A stretch of DNA of 58,097 nucleotides, taken from IMG/VR virus record IMGVR_UViG_3300044684_000351, positions 1 to 58,097 of that record. One strand, 5' to 3'. Position 1 is the stretch's first letter, and every line of letters begins with the position of its first letter. The DNA comes from a virus. The notes under the pieces are model-generated. The model saw only the letters and a list, made by a program, of their open reading frames with translations. It was not told where the DNA came from and searched no databases. Shown piece after piece: positions 199 through 42,584 of this stretch. The position numbers and the translations under genes are program-made.

Positions 199-301
199 AT
201 CAAAAGATTATGAAATTATTTTTGATCATTGGCTTTTTGATGGAAATATATTAAGTCAAAAAAGTATTCATTTACTTAAAGCATATAGGTTAATTAAATA
301 A
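14..301 (+). CDS. Small P-loop (Walker A) protein
   Basis: A 95-residue protein starting directly after the stop codon of the previous gene in the circular map. Residues 5-12 read GTGKTTKQ, a Walker A loop, so nucleotide binding is likely. The chain is too short for a complete ATPase, and no Walker B motif is obvious, although an acidic patch (IIFDHWLFD, near residue 68) could serve. The gene is AT-rich, unlike the GC-richer polymerase gene that follows and touches its last base. The right-hand copy encodes Ala instead of Thr at residue 20. The function is unknown. Confidence 0.8.
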   Translation: MEFRGTGKTTKQLLNASKNTIFICSGPSTLYTKILAGKLNRGDIKIYGFYETEELIRKFRGISKDYEIIFDHWLFDGNILSQKSIHLLKAYRLIK

Positions 302-1440
302 TGCACGTTGCCGCGCCTCCATTTGAGCACACATCCGGTCCGCAAACCGCTAAGGTTGTCTTTGTGGGGGAAGCCTGGGGCAAGTCCGAAGACCTTCTCA
401 AAAAGCCCCTAGTTGGCGGAACGGGCCGCGAATTTCTGCAAATGCTTCGGGACGTGGAATGGCCCGGCTTAACCGAACCGCGCTACCACAACACCTCCCT
501 CATGTCCGAACTTGACATGATGCATTATTGGTCCGCGCAAAATTTTCTTATAACCAACACCTTCGCGTTTCGGCCCGAAAACAATAAAATTATCACCCTC
601 TGCGGAAGTAAAAAAGATGTCGGCGGAAAATCTTACACACACTCCCCAATCCAATTTGGAAAATATCTTAGACCAGAATATTTTAGTGAGCTACAGCGGC
701 TTAAATTTGAGCTTGAAAGTATTAAGCCTAATCTTATCATTGCTCTCGGAGCAGTCGCGTCGTGGGCACTTCTCGGAATTAATACAATTTCCACTATCCG
801 AGGGACGCTCTTTGAAAGTACACTTGTCCCTGGATTGAAAGTAATTCCTACTTTTCACCCGGCGAATATTTTTCGGCAGTGGGCGAACCGGCCGATTTTG
901 CTTGCAGATTTGATTAAGGCGAAAGGGGAAATTGGCTTTCCAGAGGTGCGGCGACCTGAGCGGCAAATTCTCGTAAACCCGACGTTACAAGACCTTCACG
1001 ACTACTACGCATACGTTTCCCAAAATCCCGCCGCAATTATGGCATTGGATATTGAAACAAGTTGCAAAACCATCACCTGCATTTCCTTTTCCATTTCCCC
1101 CGATTACGCTCTGGTTATTCCTTTTCATGAACCTCTAAAGCCGTCCGGCAACTATTGGGATACTAAGGAAGAGGAAATCGAAGCGTGGAAAGTAGTAAGG
1201 GATTTGCTCTTATCGCCTAATCCAAAACTCTTTCAAAATGGCCTTTATGATCTTCAATACCTCGCGCGTATGGGATTTAAAATTGTGAACGTATTCCATG
1301 ACACCATGCTTTTACATCACGCGCTGTATCCGGAAATGGACAAGGGACTTGGATTTCTCGGCTCAATCTATACCGGAGAGCCTGCGTGGAAATTGATGAG
1401 AAAGCGAAGAGGGCAAGATGTAGTTAAAGCGGAGGAATGA
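301..1440 (+). CDS. Uracil-DNA glycosylase-like domain fused to DNA polymerase I 3'-5' exonuclease fragment
   Basis: A 379-residue two-domain protein. Residues about 15-220 look like a family 4/5-type uracil-DNA glycosylase: VGEAWG and GTGREF near the N-terminus, then ALGAVA and a late FHPAN motif. Residues about 245-370 are the first part of a family A polymerase proofreading domain, with Exo I (LDIETS) and Exo II (FQNGLYDLQYL). The chain ends soon after YTGEPAWK, before the Exo III Tyr-x3-Asp motif, which instead opens the polymerase gene 2.8 kb downstream. The two products would have to assemble to make a complete exonuclease site. The UDG part may remove uracil or sense it ahead of the polymerase. 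That role is inferred. Confidence 0.88.
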   Translation: MHVAAPPFEHTSGPQTAKVVFVGEAWGKSEDLLKKPLVGGTGREFLQMLRDVEWPGLTEPRYHNTSLMSELDMMHYWSAQNFLITNTFAFRPENNKIITLCGSKKDVGGKSYTHSPIQFGKYLRPEYFSELQRLKFELESIKPNLIIALGAVASWALLGINTISTIRGTLFESTLVPGLKVIPTFHPANIFRQWANRPILLADLIKAKGEIGFPEVRRPERQILVNPTLQDLHDYYAYVSQNPAAIMALDIETSCKTITCISFSISPDYALVIPFHEPLKPSGNYWDTKEEEIEAWKVVRDLLLSPNPKLFQNGLYDLQYLARMGFKIVNVFHDTMLLHHALYPEMDKGLGFLGSIYTGEPAWKLMRKRRGQDVVKAEE

Positions 1441-1608
1441 ATGGAATTTAAAGACTTAATGGATGCTGAAAAACAAGCTAAAGAGGAATTTGAATACGAA
1501 CAATTCCGTGAAAGAGTTGAGCAAATAAAGCAACAATATCGTGACAAGAAAAATCGTCCGTGGTATGTTAGATTGTTTCCATGGCGTATTACAATTATTA
1601 AATTTTAA
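1441..1608 (+). CDS. Small hypothetical protein (55 aa)
   Basis: The ATG follows the preceding stop codon immediately, and GGAGG lies seven bases upstream. The product is strongly charged and helical in its first 35 residues (Glu/Lys/Gln-rich), then ends in an aromatic, basic tail (RPWYVRLFPWR) that could be membrane-interacting or nucleic-acid-binding. It is the first gene of the insertion that separates the two DNA polymerase pieces. I do not recognise a family. Confidence 0.7.
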   Translation: MEFKDLMDAEKQAKEEFEYEQFRERVEQIKQQYRDKKNRPWYVRLFPWRITIIKF

Positions 1609-1620
1609 AAGGAGAAACCA

Positions 1621-1797
1621 ATGTTAGACATTACCGAAGTAGAAAAGCAGGCGCGCGAAGAACTTGCAAAGGAACAGGGCGAAAAAGCAAAATCTAAAAT
1701 CAAAGACAAGCTCAAACAAATTTCGGCTGCGCGCCAAATCGTCGCAAATCTTGAGCATGAATATGAAGTCCTTTTGCGCGAAATTGGCTCGGAGTAA
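1621..1797 (+). CDS. Small coiled-coil protein (58 aa)
   Basis: An AAAGGAG ribosome binding site precedes the ATG. The whole chain is Lys/Glu-rich and predicted helical, with heptad-like spacing and no membrane segment. It lies between two other unknown genes in the polymerase-splitting insertion. There is no recognisable family. Confidence 0.7.
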   Translation: MLDITEVEKQAREELAKEQGEKAKSKIKDKLKQISAARQIVANLEHEYEVLLREIGSE

Positions 1798-1803
1798 GTA
1801 AAT

Positions 1804-2379
1804 ATGAGTGTCGGTAATCCGCCGCTTTTATCACATCCTATTCGTCTTCATTGGGCAGGTTGGGAAACTGACACTCATATTCTTCAGCAATGCGGTTGGC
1901 AAATTAGTGCAAGTCAAGATCAAACATACAATCGAATGCAAATTGCATTTAAGCATAAAGATTTTAGAGTATACGGCATTAGTGAATTTATTGATTTTAA
2001 TTTCCATGCGTACCATTTATGTAATAGTGTAAATCAATATGAAATTTTAAAATATATCAGAGATTTAAATGTAAGATGTGAGATAGGGCAGCAAATTTAT
2101 TTGCACGTTCAAGGCCCTGTAAATTTTAAACCTGTCGATACATTACCACAATTTACAACGTTAGAACGTAATTCAATCGAAGACCTTATTTATTTCGCCC
2201 CGAACCTCGCCCGCACTCAAGAAATAATCGTCCCAGATAAGTCCGTAGTAGAACTTATGGAAGAAATTTTAAAGAAACAAGACCCGGCGCGGCAAAAATA
2301 TTTCGAGGATAAGGTCCGCGAAGATAAATTTTCGCCGAGGCAAAAAGTTCACGCGCAAATTATTAGTTTGGTGGCATGA
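1804..2379 (+). CDS. Hypothetical protein (191 aa)
   Basis: A soluble-looking protein with a Trp/Gly-rich start (LHWAGWETDTHILQQCGW) and a charged C-terminal half that includes a predicted helix (VVELMEEILKKQ). The DNA changes from AT-rich in the middle to GC-richer at both ends. The stop overlaps the next start by four bases. I do not recognise the family. The position between UDG/exonuclease and polymerase fits an early gene. Confidence 0.75.
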   Translation: MSVGNPPLLSHPIRLHWAGWETDTHILQQCGWQISASQDQTYNRMQIAFKHKDFRVYGISEFIDFNFHAYHLCNSVNQYEILKYIRDLNVRCEIGQQIYLHVQGPVNFKPVDTLPQFTTLERNSIEDLIYFAPNLARTQEIIVPDKSVVELMEEILKKQDPARQKYFEDKVREDKFSPRQKVHAQIISLVA

Positions 2380-2606
2380 TGTTTACTTTAGAAGATTTTG
2401 CCAATAAAATATTAAAGCCGCAAAATAAACAAAATCATGAATGGATGTGTAAAAAATTATTTAGATATGATGGTAAGTTTTTTACATTATTGGGTTACGG
2501 TCCAACTCCTATGGATGCCCTAAGAGATGCATTAAAAGTAGGTAAAATTTTGCAATATAAAGCCACTAAACAACGTGGAAAATGTTTTAAGGTGTTTAAG
2601 CTATGA
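2376..2606 (+). CDS. Hypothetical protein (76 aa)
   Basis: The start overlaps the previous stop (ATGA), indicating translational coupling. The protein is basic and AT-rich in codon use. It contains a short Gly/Pro turn segment (LLGYGPTPMDAL) that resembles the phage domain where a one-line beta hairpin precedes an ALRDAL helix. No family was assigned. Confidence 0.7.
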   Translation: MMFTLEDFANKILKPQNKQNHEWMCKKLFRYDGKFFTLLGYGPTPMDALRDALKVGKILQYKATKQRGKCFKVFKL

Positions 2607-2842
2607 AACCCTCCCCGCGCCGTTACCCCTCTATCAACCACACAATCACCCTTGAACAAGGTGGAATGGTGCATGAGTTTGAAATTACAATAACTTTCAA
2701 ACCAATCACGGATAGTCTTGGAATACTTGTACCGTTTAATATTATTTTCAATAATGTCGCGGGCGATTTGTCCGGGCTTCCAATTCTCATGGATCAATTA
2801 GGGCAAAAATTGAGTAAGATTTTAGAGGAGATGTATGAATGA
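2603..2842 (+). CDS. Hypothetical protein (79 aa)
   Basis: The ATG overlaps the preceding stop codon by four bases. The product alternates short beta-type stretches (HEFEITITFKP) and ends in an amphipathic helix. It overlaps the next gene by four bases, so four genes in a row are coupled. No function can be assigned. Confidence 0.7.
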   Translation: MKPSPRRYPSINHTITLEQGGMVHEFEITITFKPITDSLGILVPFNIIFNNVAGDLSGLPILMDQLGQKLSKILEEMYE

Positions 2843-3033
2843 ATTTACGTCGTATTAGAAATATTATCTTAATTAAAGCATATAAATTAGACATGGAATT
2901 AAAAGATTTAAGAGATGATAGAATTAATCCTCATAGTAAAGATTTTGATACAGAAAAATTTCAAGAAGAGTATCAAAATAAATTTAATCAATTTGCTGAT
3001 GAGTTAATTCAAACTATTGAGGATTATTGTTAG
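2839..3033 (+). CDS. Hypothetical protein (64 aa)
   Basis: A very AT-rich gene (abundant TTA, ATA and AAA codons) whose start overlaps the previous stop. The product is charged and helical, without cysteines or membrane segments. It ends 11 bases before the tRNA-Leu gene that reads the TTA codons it uses heavily. Confidence 0.7.
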   Translation: MNLRRIRNIILIKAYKLDMELKDLRDDRINPHSKDFDTEKFQEEYQNKFNQFADELIQTIEDYC

Positions 3034-3044
3034 TATTAATTTTA

Positions 3045-3133
3045 GGGCGCGTGGCGAAGTTGGTTGAAACGCAACGGACTTAAAATCCGTCACATTAGAA
3101 ACATCGTGAGTTCAAATCTCACCGTGCCCACCA
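3045..3133 (+). tRNA. tRNA-Leu (anticodon UAA)
   Basis: A seven-pair acceptor stem (GGGCGCG with CGTGCCC), a five-pair anticodon stem (ACGGA/TCCGT) around loop CTTAAAA, a long variable arm typical of leucine tRNAs, T arm GTGAG-TTCAAAT-CTCAC and an encoded CCA end. It reads UUA, a codon common in the AT-rich small genes of this phage. Confidence 0.95.
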
Positions 3134-3137
3134 AATT

Positions 3138-3230
3138 GCGGAAGTAGCTCAATGGTAGAGCGGTGGATTTATAATCCATGATCGGCAGATTACCGAACGG
3201 TTGTGGGTTCAAGTCCCACCTTCCGCACCA
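3138..3230 (+). tRNA. tRNA with UAU anticodon (Ile by anticodon) and long variable arm
   Basis: It has a perfect acceptor stem (GCGGAAG/CTTCCGC), D arm GCTC/GAGC, anticodon stem GTGGA/TCCAT with loop TTTATAA (anticodon UAU, codon AUA), T arm GTGGG-TTCAAGT-CCCAC and an encoded CCA. The variable region is 23 nt and contains a TCGG/CCGA hairpin, which is a class II feature not expected in isoleucine tRNA. The charged amino acid is therefore uncertain. The gene lies four bases after the Leu tRNA. Confidence 0.85.
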
Positions 3231-3247
3231 AATTTAAGGAAAATAAA

Positions 3248-3352
3248 ATGCTAATTAAAATTGCACTAACTTGCATTGGTTGTGGTATATTTACAATTTT
3301 ATTTGGAATATTTATAGCTTTCATTTATTTAATATCTGATATATGGAAATAA
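3248..3352 (+). CDS. Micro membrane protein (34 aa)
   Basis: An AAGGAAAA ribosome binding site precedes the ATG. Almost the entire chain is one hydrophobic helix (Ile/Phe/Leu-rich, about residues 4-30) with a Lys near each end. It is very AT-rich. One of several single-pass micro-proteins scattered through the early block, with unknown role. Confidence 0.6.
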   Translation: MLIKIALTCIGCGIFTILFGIFIAFIYLISDIWK

Positions 3353-3356
3353 AATT

Positions 3357-3539
3357 ATGTCCGATACTACATTTTCCGTTGGCGACGTTGTAAAACTTGT
3401 CTCCGGCGGACCTGACCTCACAATCATCGCCATACTCGATAACGGCGTCCACCTTGTCACATGGTTTGAAAACGGCGCGATTTGCCGTACAAAACTTCCC
3501 AAGGAATGTATGGTGAAAAGTAGAAAGGAAGAGGCATAA
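3357..3539 (+). CDS. DUF2158 (YodC-like) family protein
   Basis: A 60-residue protein with the pattern of the DUF2158/YodC family: VGDVVKLVSGGPDLTI near the start, a central Trp-containing strand (VTWFENG) and a basic, cysteine-containing end. These are small SH3-like beta-barrel proteins of unknown role, frequent in proteobacteria and phages. The last base of its stop codon touches the next start. Confidence 0.75.
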   Translation: MSDTTFSVGDVVKLVSGGPDLTIIAILDNGVHLVTWFENGAICRTKLPKECMVKSRKEEA

Positions 3540-3781
3540 TGTCCCGCACAACCTTCAACGCAACCGGCCACATCGCTAAACTTTCACCTGACTTCCAACC
3601 TGACACATGTCGCTGGATCGAAGGGCACGGCACGGAAAAAGCCTACACTTGCGCCGAACCTGCAATAAAAGGTGGCTCATATTGCCTCGAACATCACAAG
3701 CGTTGCCACACCAAAACGCCCATCTCAGATGGCAGCGGCAAAGGCAATACAATTGATAAGAATTTGAAATTCAAATGGTGA
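3539..3781 (+). CDS. Small protein with GcrA-like zinc knuckle
   Basis: An 80-residue protein whose middle (residues about 24-55) has the spacing Cys-Arg-Trp ... Tyr-x-Cys ... Ser-Tyr-Cys-x2-His, as in the C-terminal domain of the alphaproteobacterial cell-cycle regulator GcrA. The N-terminal DNA-binding part of GcrA is missing. It could be a zinc-binding adaptor or RNA-polymerase/DNA contact module. The motif is visible, the function is inferred. It supports an alphaproteobacterial host. Confidence 0.65.
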   Translation: MSRTTFNATGHIAKLSPDFQPDTCRWIEGHGTEKAYTCAEPAIKGGSYCLEHHKRCHTKTPISDGSGKGNTIDKNLKFKW

Positions 3782-4137
3782 AACTCCTAGACCCGGCGCG
3801 GCCCGTTACAGAACATGGCCATCCATGTTATCTTAACACCACCATTCCCATTCCTTGCATGATCGCGGGTTCATGTCTTGGCGGCGGCTTCAAAATCGGC
3901 TTCAAAGTGCCAACGGCACTAAATGACACCGCATATAAATACTTCAATCTTGGTGAAACCGTACCGCAATTTTTCGCCGATTGGCTTGATGATCCCGAGG
4001 CGGCGCTAGTAAAATGGATGGGCGCAGACCCTGAATGGCAAAGCAAGGGCAAAGCGCCACACAGCTTCCTTGCCACACCAGAACGGCCCGCTTACGCGCC
4101 CAAACCTAAAGCTACTATTGATGATTTGGATTTTTGA
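3775..4137 (+). CDS. Hypothetical protein with acidic C-terminal tail (120 aa)
   Basis: It overlaps the previous gene by seven bases. The body is Gly/Pro-rich in its first half and Trp/acid-rich in the second (ADWLDDPEAALVKWMG). It ends in IDDLDF after a Pro/Lys-rich linker, a tail that resembles the acidic-hydrophobic peptides by which SSB-type proteins recruit partners. Three other proteins here have related ends. It lies just before the tRNA-Gln gene. Confidence 0.7.
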   Translation: MVKLLDPARPVTEHGHPCYLNTTIPIPCMIAGSCLGGGFKIGFKVPTALNDTAYKYFNLGETVPQFFADWLDDPEAALVKWMGADPEWQSKGKAPHSFLATPERPAYAPKPKATIDDLDF

Positions 4138-4145
4138 ATAAATAT

Positions 4146-4219
4146 TTCAGGGTCGTCTAAAGGTAGGACAACGGACTTTGACTCCGTTAATCGTGGTTCA
4201 AGTCCACGCCCTGAAACCA
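4146..4219 (+). tRNA. tRNA-Gln (anticodon UUG)
   Basis: A standard 74-nt cloverleaf: acceptor TTCAGGG/CCCTGAA, anticodon stem ACGGA/TCCGT with loop CTTTGAC, T arm CGTGG-TTCAAGT-CCACG and an encoded CCA. It lies 23 bases before the polymerase start codon, so the polymerase mRNA must be separated from, or start within, the tRNA transcript. Confidence 0.95.
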
Positions 4220-4242
4220 GATTAAATGGGGGAATTTATTTC

Positions 4243-5775
4243 GTGTTAATCCAAACAGCCAATTTAAAACAAATAAACGACAGCTCAACCAATGATCAGG
4301 TATATAATGGTTTAGACTCCTGTTTAACGCTTGAAATTTTTAACAAGTTACAGGACAAAGCCGACAACCCCATCTACGCTTTTGAACGCGCCTTGCAAGC
4401 GCCGATCCTCGAAATCATGTTACGCGGGTTTCGAGTAGATCGCCGCGAGGCGCTTAAAGGTGTCATCACTCTCTCTTCTCAAATCAATCAAATCAACGCC
4501 ATTCTCCAACGCTACGCCTACGCGATTTGGGACGCGCCACTAAACCCCAATTCCCCGGCGCAAATCAAGAAATTCCTTTATGAAGCAATGCACTTGCCCG
4601 AACAATGGATTACGTTCAAGGGCGAAAAGAAACTTAGTGTCAACCGCGAAGCGTTGGAAAAACTGGATGATTACTTATACGCGCGTCCTATCCTTGCCTG
4701 CTTACTTGCTATCCGAGACCTCAACAAACAAAAACAAGTTTTTGAAACCGAAATCGATAACGATGATCGATGGAGAACAAGTTATAACATTGCAGGAACC
4801 GAAACCGGACGCCTTTCTTCTTCCGCGAGTTCCGAGAATACAGGATCGAATTTTCAAAATATCGATGTAGCACTTAGACATATTTTTATCGCCGATCCAG
4901 GTTATTATCTAATCGGCATCGATCTTGAACAGGCCGAAAGCCGCGAAGTTGGATGGCTGCAAGGTGTTTTGTTTGATGAATGGTCTTATCTTGACGCCTG
5001 TTACGGCGGTGATTTGCATACCCTTGTCTGCAAGCTAACTTGGAAAAATCTTCCATGGACGGGGGATTTAAAGAAGGACCGTGAAATTGCTGAACAACCA
5101 TTTTACAGAGATTTCGAGTACAGATTTATGGCAAAGAAATTGGGCCATGGTTCAAACTATTATGGAAAACCAGCCACCTTGTCTCGTCATGCCAAAATCC
5201 CCGTTCATCTTGCCGAAGAGTTCCAACACAACTATTTCTCCGCTTTCCCAGGTTTTCCTTTATGGCATAATTGGGTTGCTCAACAACTTAAAGAAACGTC
5301 AAGTTTAACTACCCCCTGGGGCCGTCAACGTTTTTTCTTTGATCGCGCCCATGAAGACAGCACCCTCCGCAAAGCAATCGCCTTTTCCCCTCAATCCTCA
5401 ACCGCAGACCGCACAAATTTAGCTTTATATCGCATCTGGAAAAATGTACCACAAGTTCAACTCTTAGCACAAGTGCACGACGCCATTTATTGTCAATGCC
5501 CTGTTACAATCCATCCGAATGATATTATCCCCTTACTCTTAAAGCAAATTGACATTAGACTACACCACAAGGGACGCGAATTAATCGTCCCCGGCGAGGC
5601 CAAAATAGGATTTAACCTAGGCCCATATGCCGACGAAAATGATATAGCTAGGTGGCGCAAAAACGGCGAAAAGGGCACAATGCCCCGCCTCAACCTCCTC
5701 GGCTTAAAGAAATTTAAGGAGAATTCCCCGGATGAAAGGATTGTAGGGAATGTCGCGCCGAGACTTAATAGATAA
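4243..5775 (+). CDS. DNA polymerase I polymerase domain, with Exo III at its N-terminus
   Basis: A family A polymerase fragment of 510 residues from a GTG start with GGGGGA nine bases upstream. Residues about 20-27 contain the Exo III motif YNGLD of the proofreading domain. After that come thumb/palm/fingers elements: RLSS and NFQNI, motif A IGIDLEQAESREV, motif B K-x-L-x-H-G-x-NYYG and motif C VHDA. All catalytic acids appear intact. The rest of the exonuclease (Exo I and II) is on the UDG fusion protein. The 3' end overlaps the next gene by 26 bases. Strand synthesis for phage replication is well supported, and assembly with the exonuclease piece is inferred. Confidence 0.93.
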   Translation: MLIQTANLKQINDSSTNDQVYNGLDSCLTLEIFNKLQDKADNPIYAFERALQAPILEIMLRGFRVDRREALKGVITLSSQINQINAILQRYAYAIWDAPLNPNSPAQIKKFLYEAMHLPEQWITFKGEKKLSVNREALEKLDDYLYARPILACLLAIRDLNKQKQVFETEIDNDDRWRTSYNIAGTETGRLSSSASSENTGSNFQNIDVALRHIFIADPGYYLIGIDLEQAESREVGWLQGVLFDEWSYLDACYGGDLHTLVCKLTWKNLPWTGDLKKDREIAEQPFYRDFEYRFMAKKLGHGSNYYGKPATLSRHAKIPVHLAEEFQHNYFSAFPGFPLWHNWVAQQLKETSSLTTPWGRQRFFFDRAHEDSTLRKAIAFSPQSSTADRTNLALYRIWKNVPQVQLLAQVHDAIYCQCPVTIHPNDIIPLLLKQIDIRLHHKGRELIVPGEAKIGFNLGPYADENDIARWRKNGEKGTMPRLNLLGLKKFKENSPDERIVGNVAPRLNR

Positions 5776-7003
5776 TTTTGTAGAATATACTAAAAATGAA
5801 CAAAGCCCTGAAATTTACCGCAAGTGGGCGGCGGCATCGCTCATTGGTGCGGCGGCGGAGCGGCGTTTATTTTCGTGCGCACTTGAAGATAAACCCGTTT
5901 ATCCTAATCTTTTCATCATGCTTGTCGGGCGCCCAGGGCGAGGAAAAGGTATCATTAATACTGCCCGTGCGTTATCTCGTTACATCAAGCGGAAAAACTG
6001 CTCTGCGGATAATGCGCGTAAGCCGCTATTTATTTGTCCCGACGATGTTACGGGACCGGCGGTTGTAGATAAACTCGCGGAAAGCGTGTGGTTGGAGAAT
6101 TTAGGCGAGGGACGGTTGGAGGAGTATTCCTTTATGTCCGTTTTCGCCGAGGAAATGAACGTTTTTATCAAAGCGTATGAAACGACATTTATTTCTTCTC
6201 TTGCGTTCTTTTGGAACTGCTTTGAAAGTTTTCAACAGAACCGCCGAACGGGCAATGTTCAGATTGTTATTAAGAACCCCGGATTAAATCTTCTTATCGG
6301 CGCGCAACCCGCGATGATGGCGCAATTGCTTCCAGATGTTGCATGGGGTCAGGGTTTCATGGGCCGTACAATTATGGTTTATTCCGAACAAGAAATTAAA
6401 CCAAAGTTGTTTACTCAAACGGCGCCGGAAGTGAAAGCAGCAAGAGCACAATTGCGAGCGGAAGTGCTTCAAGACCTTTCAATGATTACTGGCCTACGCG
6501 GCGAAATTTTTTGGTCCCCGGAAGCCGCGTATGAACTGGTAAATTGGATTGAGGAGAGGAATTATGCGCCGATCCCAAGGCATCCCAAACTTGAAGATTA
6601 CCTGCCAAGACGTGTCCAAAACATTACTAAACTTTCTATTGTTATGGCCTTATCGCATTCGCCTCAGAAAATACCTGAAATACAAGCCGAAGACGTGCGG
6701 CGCGCGATGGAATGGCTTTTCGAGGCCGAAGAATTAATGCCGGACGTTTTCCGCGCGATGGTCGGGCGTAGCGACAAGGATATTATTGAGGAAGCATACT
6801 TATTCGCCATGAAAATTCACGTGAGCCAAAAACGTAATGTCCCCAAGGCCCTCATGCTTTCCTTTCTCAAAGATCGCTGTCCGCACGACAAAATTAATTC
6901 TATTTTGAACCTTCTTGTTGAAATGGATTATTTAGATGAAATTGTAGATGAGGGAACTTATAGGCCGCGCGCTAAGAGTTTCGCAGATATGGAGGTTTTG
7001 TGA
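5750..7003 (+). CDS. DUF3987-like P-loop replication ATPase/helicase
   Basis: A 417-residue protein with an N-terminal WAAASLIGAAAERRL segment followed by PNLF-x-LVGRPGRGKG, the arrangement seen in DUF3987-type phage ATPases that stand in for a replicative helicase. The P-loop ends in Gly where Ser or Thr is usual. A Walker B-like region is present (SFMSVFAEE), as is a GAQPAM sensor-like motif. The C-terminal third looks like a winged-helix DNA-binding domain. It overlaps the polymerase gene and so is probably co-translated with it. Family placement is by motif only. Confidence 0.75.
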   Translation: MSRRDLIDNFVEYTKNEQSPEIYRKWAAASLIGAAAERRLFSCALEDKPVYPNLFIMLVGRPGRGKGIINTARALSRYIKRKNCSADNARKPLFICPDDVTGPAVVDKLAESVWLENLGEGRLEEYSFMSVFAEEMNVFIKAYETTFISSLAFFWNCFESFQQNRRTGNVQIVIKNPGLNLLIGAQPAMMAQLLPDVAWGQGFMGRTIMVYSEQEIKPKLFTQTAPEVKAARAQLRAEVLQDLSMITGLRGEIFWSPEAAYELVNWIEERNYAPIPRHPKLEDYLPRRVQNITKLSIVMALSHSPQKIPEIQAEDVRRAMEWLFEAEELMPDVFRAMVGRSDKDIIEEAYLFAMKIHVSQKRNVPKALMLSFLKDRCPHDKINSILNLLVEMDYLDEIVDEGTYRPRAKSFADMEVL

Positions 7004-42304: not shown

Positions 42305-42439
42305 TTTGAGAGGGAAAAGGCGACTACAGATAACAAACGCGCGCTAGACCACTACGCCACAGAACTTACGTTCCGGTAGGATTTGAACCTACGTCTCGTC
42401 TCCCCAAGAGAAGTAACTGTAATCTACACCACTCTCAAA
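42305..42439 (-). ncRNA. YrlA-type Y RNA, unit 2 (tRNA-like head)
   Basis: The ends pair as TTTGAGAG/CTCTCAAA. The loop TGGTGTA faces GCCTTTTCC, and the inner helix is GATTACAG/CTGTAGTC. The head is a permuted tRNA: T arm GTAGG-TTCAAAT-CCTAC, acceptor-like CGGAAC/GTTCTG capped by GUAA, and D arm GCGT-AGTGGTCTA-GCGC. An anticodon-stem-like CGTTT/AGACG leads back to the inner helix. The D arm and a CTTGGGG stretch look tRNA-Pro-like. No CCA end exists, so it should mimic, not act as, a tRNA. Confidence 0.85.
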
Positions 42440-42445
42440 CTTTGC

Positions 42446-42584
42446 AGGAAGGGAAAAGGCGAAAAGAGAACTGGCCGAAGCCAAAGTCAAATGCTCTACC
42501 ATCTGAGCTACAGAAAATTACTTTTCTGATCGGACTTGAACCGATGACCGTCTGATGAAGTAACTCTTTTCTGCACCACTTCCT
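42446..42584 (-). ncRNA. YrlA-type Y RNA, unit 1 (tRNA-like head)
   Basis: The ends pair as AGGAAG/CTTCCT. The loop TGGTGCA faces GCCTTTTCC, and the inner helix is GAAAAGAG/CTCTTTTC. The head is a permuted tRNA body: T arm ATCGG-TTCAAGT-CCGAT, acceptor CAGAAAA/TTTTCTG capped by GUAA, D arm GCTC-AGATGGTA-GAGC with G18G19 and A14/A21, and TTTGA/TCAGA in the anticodon-stem position. All tertiary-contact bases of a real tRNA elbow are present. A CTTTGG stretch and the order of arms recall tRNA-Gln. Confidence 0.88.

Follow-up and report, generated by a model that had tools for sequence, protein, structure and literature searches.

The window examined here is the whole 58,097-base stretch that makes up IMG/VR virus record IMGVR_UViG_3300044684_000351, a virus genome in which P22-type portal and coat genes are present. 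Its family A DNA polymerase was found to be encoded by two genes, with the break inside the 3'-5' exonuclease (proofreading) domain, between motifs Exo II and Exo III. The split is common to at least 52 lineages and, as judged by sequence comparison, is an old, fixed gene fission and not a local accident or decay; a connection with homing endonucleases is probable. The favored explanation, with a probability of about 0.85, is a single ancestral cut followed by the assembly in trans of a two-chain proofreading site. It is very probable that the two pieces unite into a proofreading enzyme, which presumes both physical association of the chains and exonuclease activity.

The Divided Exonuclease Domain

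The first gene (301-1440, + strand; an open reading frame [ORF] of 379 aa) encodes a uracil-DNA glycosylase (UDG) domain and the first part of the exonuclease domain. Exo I (LDIET; D250/E252) and Exo II (NGLYD; D317) are both on its product, the C-terminal end of which reads ...EPAWKLMRKRRGQDVVKAEE-stop. The second gene (4243-5775, + strand; an ORF of 510 aa with a GTG start and a possible ribosome site, GGGGG, at 4228-4232) carries Exo III (YNGLD; Y21/D25) near its start, and encodes the rest of the exonuclease domain together with the thumb, palm and fingers of the polymerase. Exonuclease and polymerase, which by the family A DEDDy criterion occupy one chain, are thus on two genes 2802 nt apart, and the initial annotation was right to place the split between Exo II and Exo III. 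It had also put about 30 residues between the ends of the break and the motifs; the actual distances are 62 residues after D317 and 20 before Y21.

Using Pfam, the first gene gave a UDG match (1.6e-15) and a DNA_pol_A_exo1 match of 23.2 bits, slightly under the cut-off of 23.6, while the second gave a DNA_pol_A match. In PHROGs the two genes share a family, phrog_17, the first covering profile positions 554-815 and the second continuing at 809-1195; practically nothing is therefore missing from the split enzyme. The genome was also screened for a second complete 3'-5' exonuclease, which the initial annotation had named as evidence that would count against it, and none was found by Pfam at 1e-3 among the 65 other window ORFs of at least 80 codons. 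This negative is a Pfam result, since the PHROGs scan of 65 window ORFs was available as the best 25 of 47 families.

Related Loci

Relatives were sought using both halves. A plain scan of viral contigs returned none with the polymerase half and one with the first half, and profiles were needed. Profile searches of IMG/VR matched the first half at 97 loci, of which the best 80 were taken, and the second at 28. Among 116 records examined (numbered loci, L), the halves were on separate ORFs in 63 and on one ORF in 46. Seven were set aside: L006, a copy of the window's stretch; L014, L029, L038 and L048, with no second half in reach; L067, a fused fragment under threshold; and L005 (ctLwi270), which is cut after Exo III. 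Removal of near-duplicates left 42 fused and 52 split loci, the latter being the window, Caulobacter phage Kuura and 50 IMG/VR contigs. Kuura, an isolated podovirus, has the same split (Kuura_029 and Kuura_026; 35% and 41% identity for the halves), with two small genes between the halves as against nine in the window. A scan of a genome collection gave two contigs, from a Sulfurovaceae and a Microthrix metagenome-assembled genome; these were weak or short, and therefore no firm host was assigned.

Position of the Break

Alignment with the unsplit relatives, as had been proposed, showed all 52 split loci to be broken at one and the same point between Exo II and Exo III. Lys364, upstream of the break, was universal (94/94 loci). 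The fused loci have 58-88 residues (median 68) between the Exo II Asp and the Exo III Tyr. In the split loci the first chain runs on for 59-66 residues after the Exo II Asp, and the polymerase head contributes about 12-39 more, mostly 20-26 (approximate values, the starts having been chosen by a script). Tail and head together exceed the fused spacing, so the split form has gained residues at the join and lost none; the earlier statement that almost nothing had been lost was thereby upheld.

One Origin of the Split

In a tree of the polymerase half, one branch parted the split from the fused loci (51 and 41 rows; Shimodaira-Hasegawa-like approximate likelihood ratio test [SH-aLRT] 100). The same branch was recovered when the head and five long rows were removed (49 and 39 rows; SH-aLRT 99), and again with the first half truncated at Lys364 (50 and 40 rows; SH-aLRT 98). 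All were quick trees without bootstrap. Family A polymerases elsewhere are, to our knowledge, single chains, and for that reason the split was taken as the derived state. Across 1326 pairs of loci, the distances of the two halves were correlated (r = 0.73). None of the 52 split lineages showed a re-fusion.

Conservation and Selection

All five catalytic residues, spread over two chains, are kept in 51/52 split loci: the Exo I Asp and Glu and the Exo III Tyr and Asp in every locus, and the Exo II Asp in 51. Within the first chain, 22 of 380 columns were identical in at least 51 of the 52 loci, and D250, E252 and D317 are among these. For the polymerase, 46 split loci were uncut by a contig end; Y21 and D25 were invariant in all 46, as were the palm residues D227 and D413, which we take to belong to motif A and the HD motif, respectively. 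When the window was compared with L007, its nearest relative, the proportions of nonsynonymous (pN) and synonymous (pS) differences were 0.15 and 0.72 for the first half and 0.13 and 0.80 for the second, with synonymous sites near saturation. On this comparison both halves are under purifying selection.

Structure Model

The halves of L101 are in one frame and are parted by a single TAG. An AlphaFold2 model of L101 read through the TAG (91-row alignment) had a predicted local distance difference test (pLDDT) score of 93 and a predicted template modeling (pTM) score of 0.91; stretches with pLDDT <50 occurred just at 329-334 and 340-347, around the join. The best solved matches of the model were Pol I enzymes, and the Klenow fragment (1kfd) was matched over 516 residues (Z 29.0, root-mean-square deviation 3.5) by model residues 182-808, across the break. 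As modeled, the halves fit one normal exonuclease-polymerase fold. The strands at the join (330-334 and 340-344) were mostly of pLDDT <50, and no conclusion was therefore drawn from them. AlphaFold2 was also applied to the first half of the window without an alignment, and gave a mean pLDDT of 35, which was of no use.

Proposed Explanation

According to the favored explanation, an ancestral phage family A UDG-exonuclease-polymerase would have undergone a single cut in the loop that joins Exo II to Exo III; the resulting pair of genes would then have become fixed and given rise to diverse lineages. The chains would be translated separately, associate and rebuild the DEDDy exonuclease fold, giving one active site beside the polymerase to which one chain supplies the Exo I and Exo II carboxylates and the other supplies the Tyr and Asp of Exo III. 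The gap would later have gathered nucleotide metabolism genes and HNH endonucleases and, in the window's own lineage, tRNAs.

Several points weigh against this explanation. The support consists of sequence comparison and a single-chain model, and the model, being of one chain read through a stop, speaks to the compatibility of the halves alone. In one locus, L015, the Exo II Asp is replaced by Glu. HNH genes occur in just four of the 52 gaps, so that a homing endonuclease is a candidate cause of the cut and no more.

The Gap and the Origin of the Cut

Across the split loci the gap ranges from a 4-base overlap (ATGA, in L102) to the 2802 nt of the window, the largest, with a median of 638. It is 15 nt or less in five of the 52, where the genes abut or overlap, and from these five the window's 2.8 kb is taken to be a later gain. 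The 104 gap ORFs scanned include many nucleotide metabolism genes. The DUF7768 and DUF1937 genes tested (nucleoside-deoxyribosyltransferase-like) fall into two clusters of 12 and 11 gap ORFs, which come from 23 different loci, and single cases of a dCTP deaminase-like protein, a dNMP kinase, an NrdR-like protein and MazG were found. Gap tRNAs occur in three loci only (the window, L007 and L088), which cluster on the tree.

An even chance was given to the cut having been made by a free-standing HNH homing endonuclease gene that inserted into the unsplit gene, the present gap being its descendant. This reading, of a kind discussed for T4-like phages, concerns origin and is compatible with the favored explanation. 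A search for sibling phages with a homing endonuclease at the site, suggested at the outset, was positive: HNH_3 genes lie in the gaps of L009, L036, L100 and L030, and none lies in that of the window. They are of two kinds, a zinc-finger HNH (L009, L036) and another kind (L100 and L030, both with HNH_3 matches under the Pfam cut-off; the L030 gene also matches AP2 weakly). In L009, L036 and L100 the HNH gene starts 2-6 nt past the stop of the first half. The pair L009 and L011 is clean, with a stretch of 384 bp holding the HNH gene in the former, 10 bp in its sister, and homologous flanks. From such sequences homing endonucleases seem to visit the split junction repeatedly. Against their having made the cut, the four loci are scattered on the tree, so the HNH genes may have entered an already open gap, and no HNH gene was noted at the corresponding point of a fused relative.

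New Ends and a Possible Detachable Subunit

The first chains of the split loci have Lys at position -4 from the C-terminus in 43/52, Arg or Lys at -3 in 33/52, and Asp or Glu at -2 in 48/52 and at -1 in 41/52. Many polymerase heads start, by eye, M-x-x-I-x-T-x-x-L-like. The KRDE-type tail and the polymerase head were both absent from 14 fused junctions inspected. The charged tail and the head could be docking parts. A more speculative proposal, considered unlikely as a whole, is that the UDG-exonuclease chain is a detachable fidelity subunit, with proofreading set by the amount of first chain and with tail and head as docking parts evolved after the cut. If true, separate control of uracil sensing and proofreading on the one hand and synthesis on the other would explain why the split has been kept without re-fusion in 52 lineages.

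Less Likely Readings: Loss, Joining and Artefact

It is improbable that the exonuclease is dead, with the first gene kept for its UDG and the polymerase working without proofreading. Loss of a function often ends in a split domain, and the UDG fold is retained. However, the exonuclease residues are better kept (51-52 of 52) than the UDG positions E24 (43/52) and H186 (47/52), presumably catalytic, and Exo III on the polymerase chain would be useless without the other chain. Conserved exonuclease residues and low pN are not expected of a dead exonuclease.

Still less probable is a joining of the chains after transcription or translation, by trans-splicing or a split intein. Some polymerases of this clade seem to contain inteins, to judge by the inserts of L007 and L019, with a LAGLIDADG-type match. 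At the break, however, no intein-like ends were found in the 52 loci, where the first chain terminates in a short, charged stretch and its partner has a start codon of its own. No group I or group II intron was matched by Rfam at the gathering score in the window and seven related loci, where the matches were to tRNAs only, and in five loci there is no room for one. The initial report of no visible intein or intron ends was thus borne out. An assembly or frameshift artefact was ruled out, and with it the sequencing error that had been raised as a possible cause, by the same break and conserved ends in 52 distinct loci, the isolated phage Kuura among them.

Inserts were also noted elsewhere in the polymerase half. 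In L007 (12845-15292) the polymerase half carries an intein-like insert after LDACY, with the LAGLIDADG-type match; the window polymerase is without it, and L019 (4575-6419) has a similar insert where the profile positions correspond. In L047, L052, L073/L074 and L115 the polymerase is extra-long (786-1149 aa) because its polymerase domain holds an insert, and no Pfam match was obtained for the inserts in the three tested (L047, L052 and L115).

Other Features of the Window

The gap in the window (1441-4242, + strand; 2802 nt) holds nine small ORFs and three tRNAs, as originally listed and as now supported by the ORF list and tRNA calls. The ORFs, of 55-191 codons and all on the + strand, are at 1441-1608, 1621-1797, 1804-2379, 2376-2606, 2603-2842, 2839-3033, 3357-3539, 3539-3781 and 3775-4137. 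A possible tenth, of 34 codons (3248-3352), is a candidate read from the sequence. The tRNAs, also on the + strand, are tRNA-Leu (TAA; 3045-3133), tRNA-Ile (TAT; 3138-3230) and tRNA-Gln (TTG; 4146-4219), the last 23 nt upstream of the polymerase start codon. A marginal Rfam tRNA match of 145 bases at 42371-42515 (- strand; 29.6 bits, cut-off 29) was without an ARAGORN call.

Downstream, a DUF3987 (phage primase-helicase-like) gene (5750-7003, + strand) overlaps the polymerase gene at its 3' end. In Microcystis phage Mel-JY34 the fused polymerase is likewise followed by a DUF3987 gene, and Kuura has an ORF of about that size in the corresponding position after its polymerase. The window genome further encodes repair-type and nuclease proteins (a pyrimidine dimer glycosylase, a HIRAN domain, a UvrD helicase, a PD-(D/E)XK nuclease and GIY-YIG) and, in a P22-like phage, a TROVE/Ro60-type protein (Pfam 3.2e-16), the partner RNA of which was sought by Rfam alone.

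Comparison with Known Systems

Family A polymerases usually carry their proofreading site as one folded domain of a single chain. In the present case a whole clade has the metal-binding residues of one site on two genes, with both parts under selection, and so provides a natural separable system for exonuclease-polymerase communication, as well as an example of an active site divided permanently by gene fission.

Split phage polymerases are known. Gene 43 (a family B polymerase) is split in Aeromonas phages 25 and 44RR, and the part of the source available describes 43A and 43B of phage 25 as co-purifying and polymerase-active (PMC2988022). In this case and in the split nrdA of Aeh1, as in the window, a phage replication gene is divided and its parts are separated by a spacer or a homing endonuclease; the Aeromonas gene 43 differs in belonging to another polymerase family. 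In the OM43 phages MEP401 and MEP402 a family A polymerase is split, with a small ORF between, as in most of their group, and an intron was considered by the authors in the text available (PMC10580990). There the first ORF encodes the exonuclease as well as the N-terminal part of the polymerase, so that the polymerase domain itself is interrupted. An intein-bearing polymerase B of a jumbo phage has been described in the accessible portion of another paper (PMC6892783), and a survey of Caudoviricetes polymerases, as far as its text was available, did not mention fission under the terms searched (PMC11348598). The Kuura paper names a DNA polymerase, and its available portion makes no mention of the split (PMC9959647). 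The literature searched, in which subscription journals were little covered, yielded no report of a family A polymerase divided between these two exonuclease motifs (Exo II and Exo III), and within that literature such a cut appears unreported.

Also close are other phage UDG-exonuclease-polymerases. ctLwi270 (MW202554; L005:1228-3865) has its UDG-exonuclease and polymerase on two genes, like the window; unlike the window, its first gene keeps Exo III, the cut being after the exonuclease domain, and by sequence it is probably a separate fission event. The fused enzymes of phrog_17 (Mel-JY34, ctMlz233 and Desulfofustis phage LS06-2018-MD01) share the domain order and catalytic residues of the split form and have a similar neighborhood, but are one chain, without the KRDE-type end and without the 20-25 residue head at the join.

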